This document shows, piece by piece, positions 8,997 to 29,564 of a stretch of DNA of 41,279 bases. A program made the position numbers and the translations under genes. The DNA comes from an uncultured Mycoplasmatota bacterium. GTDB taxonomy: Bacteria > Bacillota_I > Bacilli_A > RF39 > UBA660. Each line of letters starts with the position of its first letter. The stretch's first letter is position 1. The notes beneath the pieces are model-generated. The model did not search any database. It had not been told where the DNA came from and saw only the letters and a list, made by a program, of their open reading frames with translations. The stretch spans positions 1 to 41,279 of the forward strand of contig CANSFI010000015.1 of the NCBI GenBank assembly GCA_947646095.1. Direction: 5' to 3'.

Positions 8997-11079
<2,083 letters not shown>

Positions 11080-21893: not shown

Positions 21894-21913
21894 ATAAAAA
21901 ATGTTTGATTAGT

Positions 21914-21985
21914 GGTATAATTTAAATATAAAATTGGTAAATTTTACCATTATAAGAAATACATTTATTTATAATTTCTTATTAT
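21914..21985 (+). promoter_or_regulatory. ibr operon control region: extended -10, palindrome and hairpin
   Basis: An extended -10, TGGTATAAT (hexamer 21916-21921), is followed by a perfect 15-nt palindrome TGGTAAATTTTACCA (21935-21949), then a 9-bp hairpin ATAAGAAAT/ATTTCTTAT (about 21952-21985). The palindrome lies just downstream of the predicted start, a classic repressor position. The leader to the ATG is about 80 nt. Confidence 0.6.
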
Positions 21986-22010: not shown

Positions 22011-23288
22011 ATGCCACAAATATATAATGATAAAGATGTATACACTGCAGCTATGGAAAGATTTGAATTTGTTTTTAATAATTTTGACAATTATTACTTT
22101 TCAGTAAGTGGTGGAAAAGATAGTAGTATTATGCTTCAATTAGCCGCTAAAAAAGCTCGTGAAATGCATAAAAAAATAAGTGTTCTTTATGTAGATTTTG
22201 AAGCCCAATATAAAGCCACTATCAATCATATATATGAACTTATTGATGAAATACGAGATGTATTAGACTGTTGGTATTGGATTGCTATGCCACTTGCTTT
22301 AAGAAATGCTGTATCAATTATTCAACCAAAATGGATTTGTTGGAATAGTAAAGAAAAAAATAAATGGGTAAGAGAAATGCCTGATAATAATTGGGTAATA
22401 AATGAAGAAAATTATCCAAAAGAATGGACTTGGTTTCATAAAGGAATGGAATTTGAAGATTTTATTTTATATTTTGCGGAATGGTTTAACAGGCAAAAAG
22501 GTGGTATTACAGCTTGTTTAGTAGGAATTAGAACAGCTGAAAGCTTAAACCGTTTTAGAACTATTACTAATACAAAAAAAGAAAGATTTTTAGATAAAAG
22601 TTGGACTACTAGATTTCATATTAAAAATCATCCTATAGATGTTTACAATATTTTTCCTTTGTATGATTGGAAAACAGAAGATGATTGGACAGCTGTATTT
22701 AAATTTAATTTGAAATATAATGATATTTATGAACAAATGTATAAAAATGGTCTATCAATTCATGAACAAAGATTGTGTCAGCCTTATGGTGATGATCAAA
22801 AAAATGGATTAAATCAATTTAAAGCATTAGAATATGATACCTGGGAAAAAGTTTTAAATAGAGTACATGGGGTTAATTTTGGTAATATTTACTGTAGAAC
22901 TAGTGTTTTAGGATTTATGAAAACCGAAAAGCCAGATAGTATGACTTGGCAACAATATACAGTATTCTTACTTGAAAGTATAGGTTTATATGTGCCAGAA
23001 CTTAGAGATCACTATTATGGGAAAATAAAAGCTTTTTTAAGGTGGCATGAAAAAAAATTTGGTATCAAAGCAAATCAAATTAAAGATGAAGAAGATAAAA
23101 GACTTGAAAATTTAAGAAGGGTTGCTAGTTGGAGAAGAATAGCTAGAGCTATTGAAAGAAATGATTTTTGGATGAAGAGACTTAGTTTTTCTCAAAGTAA
23201 AAAAGATGCTAAAAGACTTGTAGAATTACAAAAAAAATATAAAAATTTAGTTGATAAAAATGATAGTCATTTTAAAGGAATAGAATAG
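22011..23288 (+). CDS. ibrA: IbrA-like DUF3440 PP-loop ATPase (PAPS reductase fold)
   Basis: 425 aa. N-type ATP pyrophosphatase signature SVSGGKDSS at 31-39, followed by LYVDFEAQYKATI. The long Trp-rich region (WYWIAMPLALRNAV; WICWNSKEKNKWVREMP) and GIRTAESLNRFRTI fit the DUF3440 family, whose best-known member is IbrA of E. coli ECOR-9. The fold activates a substrate by adenylation, as in PAPS reductase or DndC; the IbrA substrate is unknown. It is the first gene of a three-gene operon and is followed 10 nt later by a GNAT-like gene and then ibrB. SD GGGAAGTG. The family call is firm; any chemistry is inference. Confidence 0.88.
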   Translation: MPQIYNDKDVYTAAMERFEFVFNNFDNYYFSVSGGKDSSIMLQLAAKKAREMHKKISVLYVDFEAQYKATINHIYELIDEIRDVLDCWYWIAMPLALRNAVSIIQPKWICWNSKEKNKWVREMPDNNWVINEENYPKEWTWFHKGMEFEDFILYFAEWFNRQKGGITACLVGIRTAESLNRFRTITNTKKERFLDKSWTTRFHIKNHPIDVYNIFPLYDWKTEDDWTAVFKFNLKYNDIYEQMYKNGLSIHEQRLCQPYGDDQKNGLNQFKALEYDTWEKVLNRVHGVNFGNIYCRTSVLGFMKTEKPDSMTWQQYTVFLLESIGLYVPELRDHYYGKIKAFLRWHEKKFGIKANQIKDEEDKRLENLRRVASWRRIARAIERNDFWMKRLSFSQSKKDAKRLVELQKKYKNLVDKNDSHFKGIE

Positions 23289-23298
23289 GAAGTTTGTT

Positions 23299-23751
23299 AT
23301 GAAAAGTATTAAAGAATATGATATAAAAAATGAATATAATATTAAAGTATTTATGGGAAATTACAATAAAAGGGAATTCTATAGTTGGATGGGTGAATTT
23401 TTTGCTGATCGTAAATATAGAAAAAAAATGCCATATCTTATTAATGATGTTGATAAAATATGGTATGTAATATATGAAAGAAGAGATAAAATTGTTGGAT
23501 TTTTTGGAATTAAAATTTGCTTAGATAATACTTTAATATCAGATATATATATAGATGAAAATTATAATAGAATGAGTATTTTTGAATATATGGCTAAATA
23601 TTTAGTAGAACTTTATCAAGAAGAAACAATTAAAGTTCTAACTAAAATGCCAAATGAACAAATTATTTGGTCGAATTTAAGTTTTACAATTATTGGAAAT
23701 AGGGGAAATTATGCTATTATGACCAGAAAGGTAAAAAATGAAAAAAATTGA
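23299..23751 (+). CDS. GNAT-like acetyltransferase-fold protein
   Basis: 150 aa. The centre shows the GNAT beta4-beta5 pattern: WYVIYERRDKIVGFFGIKICLDNTLISDIYIDENYNRMSIFEYMAKYL. The pyrophosphate-binding loop (R/QxxGxG/A) is poorly conserved (DENYNRMSIFEY), so acetyl-CoA binding is doubtful. It lies between ibrA and ibrB, overlapping the latter by 14 nt, which argues for a shared function. It may modify or recognise the product or partner of IbrA. I am confident it is a real gene; the fold call is moderate. Confidence 0.65.
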   Translation: MKSIKEYDIKNEYNIKVFMGNYNKREFYSWMGEFFADRKYRKKMPYLINDVDKIWYVIYERRDKIVGFFGIKICLDNTLISDIYIDENYNRMSIFEYMAKYLVELYQEETIKVLTKMPNEQIIWSNLSFTIIGNRGNYAIMTRKVKNEKN

Positions 23752-24277
23752 TTTTCCTGTTTTAAATGTTCAAATGATTTCCACTTCAAAAGTAATAGCG
23801 AATGATTATAATCCTAATAAAGTAGCATATCCTGAAATGAAACTTTTAAAACATTCAATTGAACAAGATGGATATACTCAACCCATTGTTACTTATTATG
23901 ATAAAAAGAAGGATATATACGTTATTGTAGATGGCTTTCATAGATATAGATGTGCTAAAGAATATTTTCATCTAGAAGAAATACCAGTTGTAGTAATAAA
24001 AAAAGATATAAAGAATAGAATGGCTTCTACTATTAGACATAATAGGGCTAGAGGAACTCATCAAATAAAGGATATGAGTATTATAGTTAAAGACTTAGCA
24101 GAATTTGGCTGGAGTGATGAAAAAATATGTAATGAACTAGGTATGGAATTGGATGAAGTAATAAGATTAAAACAAGTAACAGGCCTTAAAGAAGCTTTTC
24201 AAAATCATGAATTTAGTAAATCATGGGATGAATTTGAAAAAAGATATTATTCTGACCAAATAAAAAATAATGATTAG
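23738..24277 (+). CDS. ibrB: IbrB-like ParB/Srx-fold protein
   Basis: 179 aa. N-terminal ParB-like domain: VIANDYNPNK, LLKHSIEQDGYTQPIVTYY, then YVIVDGFHRYRCAKEY (about 65-80, the GxHR-type nucleotide-binding motif) and RHNRARGTHQ (about 104-113). The C-terminal half is a helical part (LAEFGWSDEKICNELGMELDEVIRLKQVTG) like the HTH of ParB/KorB. IbrB is the known partner of IbrA, and the same order is seen here. It starts inside the GNAT-like gene with SD AAAGG. The role could be nucleotide-dependent DNA binding; DNA targets are not visible. Confidence 0.85.
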   Translation: MKKIDFPVLNVQMISTSKVIANDYNPNKVAYPEMKLLKHSIEQDGYTQPIVTYYDKKKDIYVIVDGFHRYRCAKEYFHLEEIPVVVIKKDIKNRMASTIRHNRARGTHQIKDMSIIVKDLAEFGWSDEKICNELGMELDEVIRLKQVTGLKEAFQNHEFSKSWDEFEKRYYSDQIKNND

Positions 24278-24837: not shown

Positions 24838-25068
24838 TTAAAATAATAGTCTTATAAAATTAAGGGTTCTAGTAACTCTTTTTTCTTGTTTTAAATCACT
24901 GTGAACATAAATATCTATAGTAGTACTAGTTTTAGAATGTCCTAATCGTGAAGAAACAACTTTCAAGGGTACTTTTTTGTTAATTAATAATGTAGCATGA
25001 CTGTGTCTAAAATCTTGACATAAATCCAAACATAGATGATTTAGAAAGATAAGAAGATTATACGCCAA
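24838..25068 (-). pseudogene. Remnant of a tyrosine recombinase (integrase C-terminus)
   Basis: Only the catalytic C-terminus survives: DFRHSHATLL (the Arg-x-x-His/HxxR box in altered form), VPLKVVSSRLGHSKTSTT and IYVHSD with the nucleophile Tyr, then a normal-looking tail. The upstream catalytic Arg, SAM-like and arm-binding domains are absent; the sequence before DFRH is unrelated. An intact integrase would be about 380 aa. It lies 92 bp from the tRNA-Gly 3' end, in the usual orientation of tRNA-inserted islands, so it is a relic of an integrated element. Confidence 0.85.
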
Positions 25069-25741: not shown

Positions 25742-26725
25742 ATGAAGTCAGTATTAGGTGTAGATGTTGCAAAGTGTAAAAGTATGATAACGCTATCTAC
25801 AGAGTATGGAGAAGTATTAATTGAACCTAAAGAAATTAAACATAATTTAAAAGATTTTGATGATTTTAAATTAGAAGATTTAACAATATTTATGGAATCG
25901 ACAGGAATCTATCATTTGCCAGTAGAAAGATATTTTAAAGAAAATGGTTTAAATGTTAGTTGTAAGAATAGATATAAGTGATTGATAAATATCTGTTTCC
26001 CAGAGTTTGAAGAAATATTTAAAGGTAGTAGAATTTATGAAGAAACAGCTTTAAACTTTATAAAAACATTTCATCATGATTATATTGTTAAAGAAAAAAG
26101 AATTGATACTTTATATAACAACTTATATAAAACAAACTCTAGATATGATTATTATTACAAAAGACTTGCAAATAAAATTAAAGAGATTTCCCTTAATTCT
26201 TATCCAGGAGTAGATAAAGATCATTCAGATGTTAAAAACTTATCAGATATGGCAGGTATCTTACAAGAAAATATTAAAACAATAAATGAGTTAAAAGATA
26301 AAATGATTGAAACAGCAAAACAATCTCCATATTTTGATATTATTAATTTATTTTATGGTGTTGGAGAAGTATTAACGACTGAGCTACTAGGAGAACTTGG
26401 GGATATTACAAGCTTTGATAATCATAAGCAACTAATTGCTTTTTGTGGTTTAGATCCAACAATAATACAATCAGGAAAAAGTATTAATGTTCATGGAACA
26501 ATCTCAAAACGAGGAAATAAATATGCAAGCTGGATTTTATTTAATATAAGTCAAATGGTAGTTAAGTTAGGACACCAATGTCCAAATCATCCAGTATATA
26601 ATTATTATTTAACAAAAAAAGCAGAAGGCAAACATTACGATGAAATCCTAACTGCATGTTCTATAAAAATATTAAGAATGTTATATACAATGTGCAAAAA
26701 TAATACAACATTTAAAATAAATTAA
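25742..26725 (+). pseudogene. IS110-family transposase, internally deleted
   Basis: The N-terminal part (SVLGVDVAK, then FMESTGIYHLPVERYFKENGLNV) gives the first DEDD Asp and the Glu. It stops at TGA (25979-25981) after about 79 aa and continues in the same frame as INICFPEFEEIFKGS. The C-terminal transposase_20 domain is intact (GVGEVLTTELLGELGDI, LIAFCGLDPTIIQSGKS, GTISKRGNKYASWIL with the putative nucleophile Ser). The total of about 326 aa is shorter than the usual 400 aa or so, because the segment with the last two DEDD acids is missing. Inactive by these losses. The upstream 160 bp is non-coding, as in IS110 elements that carry a bridge RNA. Confidence 0.88.
25742..26725 (+). mobile_element. 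Degenerate IS110-type insertion sequence (ends not defined)
   Basis: IS110 elements lack clear terminal inverted repeats, so the ends cannot be read; the coding remnant is given as the minimum extent. Non-coding flanks at 25565-25741 and 26726-26790 probably belong to it. The downstream flank contains a hairpin CACGAAAA/TTTTCGTG (about 26759-26790). Confidence 0.65.
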
Positions 26726-29258: not shown

Positions 29259-29564
29259 ATGAAAAAAATAAGTATTATTTTATTTATAGGGGCTTTATTT
29301 TTAACAGGTTGTAGAAACAAAGAAGAAGAATATAAAGAAATTTTAGAAAGTTATGCTAAAACCTATTATGAAGATTATATGATAGGAGTAGAAAACCAAC
29401 AACAGGTGGAAATTACAATTGAAATGTTAAAGAATGCTAATGAAAATGGAGCTAGATATGATTTATCTAAACTAAAAAAATGTAAAGATTCCACTACAGT
29501 TGTAGTAGATTTAAATGAAAAAAAAGAAATTGTTAAGTATAACTATGATTTAAAATGTGATTAA
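29259..29564 (+). CDS. Small lipoprotein, unknown function
   Basis: 101 aa. A Lys-led hydrophobic signal (MKKISIILFIGALFLTGC) ends in lipobox LTGC with Cys18, so the mature protein is about 84 aa, anchored outside the membrane. The mature part is helical and charged (KEEEYKEILESYAKTYYEDYM). It begins 11 nt after sufB (SD AAAGGAGG) and may be co-transcribed, though a link to Fe-S assembly is not implied. Ends at a terminator. Confidence 0.8.
   Translation: MKKISIILFIGALFLTGCRNKEEEYKEILESYAKTYYEDYMIGVENQQQVEITIEMLKNANENGARYDLSKLKKCKDSTTVVVDLNEKKEIVKYNYDLKCD

Follow-up and report, generated by a model that had tools for sequence, protein, structure and literature searches.

The ibr operon described here lies within a window of 41,279 nucleotides, the whole stretch of contig CANSFI010000015.1 that was analysed, from an uncultured Mycoplasmatota bacterium. 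Three plus-strand genes occupy positions 22011–24277, namely ibrA, a GNAT-fold gene and ibrB, and ibrA has a single match in the 1.38 Mb genome that carries the contig. The features are as follows.

21913–21921, plus strand: extended −10 TGGTATAAT of the predicted ibrA promoter, read from the sequence
21935–21949, no strand assigned: operator TGGTAAATTTTACCA (consensus TGGWAANNNTTWCCA), a predicted site of autorepression, located just past the −10
21952–21982, no strand assigned: second inverted repeat, lying in the leader after the operator and before the start codon; its 9-bp arms are at 21952–21960 and 21974–21982
22011–23288, plus strand: ibrA, 425 aa, a DUF3440/PAPS-reductase-like PP-ATPase
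23299–23751, plus strand: GNAT-fold third component, 150 aa, named IbrC here
23738–24277, plus strand: ibrB, 179 aa, with a ParB/Srx-fold N-terminal domain and a predicted HTH-like segment
24672–24745, plus strand: tRNA-Gly(TCC), 394 nt past ibrB, a landmark of a variable slot
24838–25068, minus strand: C-terminal remnant of a tyrosine integrase, 76 aa, covering Phage_integrase positions 131–169 of 172

Coordinates and domain matches confirm the gene content given by the first-pass annotation, namely ibrA with its SGGKDSS motif, a GNAT-like middle gene and a ParB-like ibrB, the last two overlapping by exactly 14 nt. Downstream, the tRNA-Gly and the integrase remnant are followed by an IS110-type transposase and then by the host genes spoVS, nifU, sufB and ssb. 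The transposase (25742–26725) is in two pieces, with an in-frame stop at 25979–25981.

IbrA matches the DUF3440 (E=4e-28) and PAPS_reduct (E=6e-12) profiles, and against the PDB its profile finds CysD, PAPS reductase and FAD synthase; no closely related solved structure turned up for either IbrA or IbrB. SGGKDSS occupies residues 33–39, and the PP-loop S[GA]GKDS is present in all 19 diverse IbrA sequences aligned (alignment A2), among which no cysteine is invariant. Retention of the PP-loop and lack of an invariant cysteine speak against sulfur chemistry of the DndC kind and in favour of adenylation. As a PP-loop ATP pyrophosphatase of the CysD/FAD synthase/PAPS reductase superfamily, IbrA would most likely adenylate its substrate, with no transfer of sulfur. 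CasCysH of type IV-B CRISPR-Cas is likewise a PAPS-reductase-like PP-ATPase devoid of the catalytic cysteine and has been argued to adenylate (PMC8175902), an argument that would apply equally to IbrA. Experiments on IbrA or IbrB chemistry were not found in the literature searched.

DndC-like phosphorothioation of DNA, which had been raised at first reading, is not supported. The dnd systems do resemble the ibr pair in combining a ParB-superfamily protein (DndB) with a PP-loop ATPase (DndC), and DndB has been described as repressing its own operon in an ATP-dependent manner (PMC12704722). DndC, on the other hand, has catalytic cysteines that IbrA lacks, the ibr locus is without DndA/D/E, and dndA, dndD and dndE are not among the recurrent neighbours in our survey of ibr loci. 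We regard phosphorothioation as very improbable, and sulfur transfer by IbrA in the manner of DndC was rejected on the absence of an invariant cysteine from the 19 sequences.

The middle protein matches Acetyltransf_1 (E=8e-6), and its AlphaFold model (pLDDT 89.8) has the GNAT fold; a fold search in the PDB returned GNATs, with E-values down to 1.2e-5 and generic N-acetyltransferases nearest. In place of the acetyl-CoA pyrophosphate loop R/Q-x-x-G-x-G/A, the window protein reads NYNRMSIF. Of 28 GNAT sequences, 12 retain R-x-x-G and four (L029, L064, L069, L071) have R-x-x-G-x-G, including the final glycine, whereas R-x-x-G is absent from every copy of the window's own family. The most conserved part of the alignment is the N-terminal segment FYxxMGxFF...W (residues 24–56), with 2.56 bits per column as against 1.60 in the CoA-loop segment. 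A shorter and more degenerate form of 116–127 aa occurs in L014 and L045–L047. Between the window and a same-genus relative (L002), dN is 0.075 for IbrA, 0.112 for IbrB and 0.265 for the GNAT, with dS about 1; the GNAT thus evolves fast yet under purifying selection, as do IbrA and IbrB, and is therefore not a decaying gene. Given that the CoA loop is lost and the FYxxMGxFF...W motif retained, the window copy is probably a non-catalytic partner, and we infer a recognition or docking role in the window's family, with catalysis ancestral. IbrC would be a dedicated GNAT-fold partner of IbrA: in the ancestral protein an acyl-CoA transferase site probably worked on the activated substrate or a partner protein, and in the window's family, where the CoA loop is gone, it would probably serve as a specificity or docking subunit. 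Folding of the natural IbrA–GNAT fusion L062 to model docking gave a low-confidence result (pTM 0.53). Elsewhere in the window, a short gene after sufB (29259–29561) has a weak GNAT match (PF12746, 1.6e-4), and an ORF of equal length and place is found in L186 (13769–14074).

The first-pass annotation had raised the question of whether the middle gene is conserved in other ibrAB loci, and the neighbourhood survey found it recurring in many of them. A scan of IMG/VR with the GNAT profile alone retrieved 14 viral contigs, in all of which ibrA and ibrB adjoin the GNAT gene, and a wider GNAT alignment retrieved the same 14. Within the phylum, 295 genomes gave two GNAT matches above 100 bits (161.6 and 118.1), both in ibrA genomes, the remaining GNATs scoring 46 bits or less. 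The three genes occur in five orders (A-C-B, C-A-B, A-B-C, B-A-C and B-C-A, where C is the GNAT), and IbrA–GNAT fusions were found in a genome contig (L007) and a viral contig (L062). At an IbrA identity to the window's of about 69% or more there are 12 loci, the window's own among them, and each has the GNAT gene between ibrA and ibrB; L027 and L028, with IbrA about 35% identical, have none there. Among deduplicated loci retrieved with IbrA, ibrB is present in 121 of 123 and the GNAT in 28, and its absence from the other 95 makes it an optional part. Mapped onto the IbrA tree, presence of the GNAT requires 14–19 changes, compared with about 35 when labels are shuffled; the gene is clustered on the tree, yet has been repeatedly gained or lost. 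The phage record collection gave no tblastn match to the window GNAT, a fast-evolving copy, so the link between GNAT and phages rests on the IMG/VR and genome loci. Taken together, the survey supports the GNAT as a third component that is conserved in many ibrAB loci.

IbrB matches ParB_N (E=5e-10), and an HTH-like segment is predicted after its ParB domain. VDGFHR and TIRHNRARG are invariant in the IbrB alignment, supplying the box II arginine and the box III motif, and align with the GERR region of ParB/Noc, at the places of the ParB nucleotide-binding boxes. ParB folds bind CTP, ATP or GTP, for which the box II arginine is needed (PMC12704722), and NTP-dependent DNA binding by IbrB, as first proposed, is plausible. 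The serine kinases SerK and SbnI provide a precedent for the ParB/Srx fold as an ATP-binding enzyme, and SbnI is a weak profile match of IbrB; unlike them, IbrB has the additional HTH-like C-terminal segment.

Upstream of ibrA, TATAAT is present in all ten family loci aligned, and the extended −10 of the window is followed by TGGTAAATTTTACCA, a perfect odd palindrome. The palindrome alone is weak evidence, because Markov shuffling of 180-nt upstream regions yields one with arms of at least 7 and a loop of at most 1 in 22% of cases. A generic promoter and terminator scan found no more than chance. Its conservation upstream of ibrA in relatives is the reason why we consider the operator real. 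The pattern TGGWAANNNTTWCCA precedes ibrA in nine of the 12 genomes of the family that carry the GNAT operon, and a pattern search of the whole 1.38 Mb genome gave one match, the site upstream of ibrA (expectation for the window, 0.02). Two loci without a GNAT, L034 and L038, whose IbrA is about 35% identical to the window's, carry the same pattern as TGGTAAATTTTACCA and TGGTAAAATTTACCA, where it covers the −35 region immediately before the −10. The earlier reading of this 15-nt palindrome as the operon's operator thus gains support from both conservation and uniqueness in the genome. Something similar to the second leader repeat was found only in the same-genus relative L002.

Sites just downstream of a −10 or over a −35 suit a repressor. 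L034 and L038 share only IbrA and IbrB with the window, and IbrB has the HTH-like segment, which makes IbrB the likeliest binder; autorepression through binding of IbrB to the operator is the most likely arrangement. In mechanistic terms, IbrB, an NTP-binding protein with an HTH-like segment, would bind TTGGWAAAATTTWCCAA beside the promoter and repress the operon, so that expression might follow nucleotide or system state. A host protein could bind the site instead, but the operator is unique in the genome and common to loci that share only IbrA and IbrB. In G005, another genome of the family, in which no ibrA was found, TGGWAANNNTTWCCA has nine copies and a control pattern none; these copies may be the regulon of a different regulator.

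The same features bear on the possibility that the operon is a transcription regulator module, in which IbrB would act on DNA as a ParB-type clamp or as an activator, with IbrA and the GNAT modifying IbrB or RNA polymerase so as to switch gene sets. Besides the HTH-like segment and the conserved operator, it can draw on the sole published IbrAB phenotype, which is activation of eib expression in E. coli (Sandt 2002, cited in PMC7649339) and not modification. However, uniqueness of the operator means that there is no wider regulon with that site in this genome, and a conserved PP-loop enzyme would be unusual in a pure regulator; we regard this possibility as somewhat unlikely.

Relatives occur in 215 phage records, and on the IbrA tree the window protein is nested among phage and viral IbrAs, its nearest relatives being in phages, which supports phage ancestry of the operon. 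The operon of this bacterium would then be a domesticated chromosomal copy. Earlier papers describe IbrA/IbrB in phages as well as in a Heimdallarchaeal virus (PMC4490671, PMC4541368, PMC8813620), and one of them reports a glacial phage-plasmid that has the pair together with a type I-E CRISPR system (PMC4490671). Use of the tRNA-Gly by an integrase, as suggested at first reading, is only partly supported. The integrase is a remnant and a second attachment repeat was looked for in the window without success, and an integrase-driven island at the tRNA was rejected. In the other genera whose flanks were compared, ibrACB does not stand beside tRNA-Gly. In G001, of the same genus, the interval from a deaminase gene to spoVS contains ibrACB, a predicted type II restriction enzyme, a uracil-DNA-glycosylase-like gene and tRNA-Gly on the other strand, and this difference in contents marks the interval as a variable slot. 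No clean empty site could be shown, because none of ten loci compared through the upstream deaminase gene has a tRNA within the flanking 2–3.5 kb. The restriction enzyme predicted in this slot in L186, of the same genus (9535–10299), matches PADLOC REase_II at 1.5e-14.

A restriction enzyme in the same slot of a same-genus relative is among the points in favour of a toxin–antitoxin-like or abortive defence set, in which IbrA would carry the enzymatic activity, under the control of IbrB or the GNAT. The patchy distribution of ibrA within the family (14 of 386 genomes) fits such a set, and a Listeria pair has been listed as a toxin–antitoxin candidate by guilt by association (PMC7020466). PADLOC 2023, on the other hand, found no system model at the window operon and its only matches were generic methyltransferase models, hit by way of the ParB domain; all three genes are under purifying selection, and phages carry the same genes. 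We consider a defence set of this kind improbable.

In six loci (L009, L010, L015, L051, L064, L084) ibrAB lies inside or beside csf-like genes and a short CysH-like PP-ATPase gene, whose scores are significant but below curated cut-offs; the CysH-like proteins, of 217–268 aa, stand beside a full ibrAB and are not ibrAB itself. Three of these type IV-like CRISPR loci (L051, L064, L084) also have the GNAT gene. At the window locus csf1, csf2 and csf3 were not found near the operon; the association belongs to the six relatives only. The literature searched, which covered part of the key type IV papers, contained no report of ibrAB in this arrangement, and priority is not established. An SNF2-type helicase gene stands near ibrA in 29 loci (among them L007, L008, L014, L043, L045–L047, L062 and L063), often directly upstream, and a second gene, about 380 aa long, is shared by 16 loci.

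Modification of nucleic acid or protein, which had been proposed as the role of the operon, is plausible. One form of it is hypermodification of DNA (or RNA) bases, in which IbrA would adenylate a base or carboxylate, the GNAT would acylate it and IbrB would direct the reaction to DNA, protecting phage genomes. Phage early-region contexts, the helicase loci, the 12 GNAT copies that keep the loop, four of them complete to the last glycine, and the type IV-like operons, where ibrAB sits beside a CysH-like protein of a kind proposed to modify nucleic acid (PMC8175902), are all compatible with it. However, the loci have no base-modification partner gene in common, most are without a GNAT, the fold search points to generic GNATs, and in the window's family the full acylation chemistry would not run, because the CoA loop is degraded. 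We hold base hypermodification to be unlikely. We give no greater credence to a joint adenylation, acylation and NTP-gated DNA-binding machine common to phages and type IV-like CRISPR elements, of which the chromosomal GNAT would be a dead adaptor.

The reading we prefer, to which we grant an even chance, is an autoregulated, phage-derived ibrA–ibrC–ibrB module. It builds on the gene content, conservation, fold, operator conservation and phage ancestry observed here, and would add adenylation by IbrA, a physical partnership with a docking-type IbrC, repression by IbrB and a role in phage–host conflict, in which the module as a whole would probably act by modifying or sensing nucleic acids or nucleotides. 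The same DUF3440 and ParB-like pair is known as IbrA/IbrB in E. coli ECOR-9 and YbdN/YbdM in K-12, and occurs on prophages. In K-12, ybdNM has been described as an operon of two genes repressed by the LysR-type YbdO/CitR (PMC9068703); the window operon, in contrast, has a GNAT gene between the pair and a palindromic operator before them. A ParB fold is likewise linked with an acetyltransferase in a GTP-binding fusion of a ParB-CTPase fold (PMC12704722), whereas the ibr genes are separate, or the GNAT is fused to IbrA.

The pair is spread over phages, bacteria and archaeal viruses, and looks like the core of a larger system, since the GNAT and a control site recur with it. A dedicated third protein, a predicted autoregulatory operator and a type IV-like CRISPR link provide three handles on IbrA/IbrB, and if IbrA and CasCysH work alike, an understanding of either should throw light on the other. 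In loci of B-A order, a conserved protein of about 130 aa (YHYTKWEDYxxGMY...NxxAWLGQAACC) lies between ibrB and ibrA; copies include L053:4574–4969, which has no Pfam match, L067:3336–3758, L069:3366–3776, L071:3391–3819 and others in L083, L085, L093 and further loci, and a similar domain is fused to IbrB in L052.
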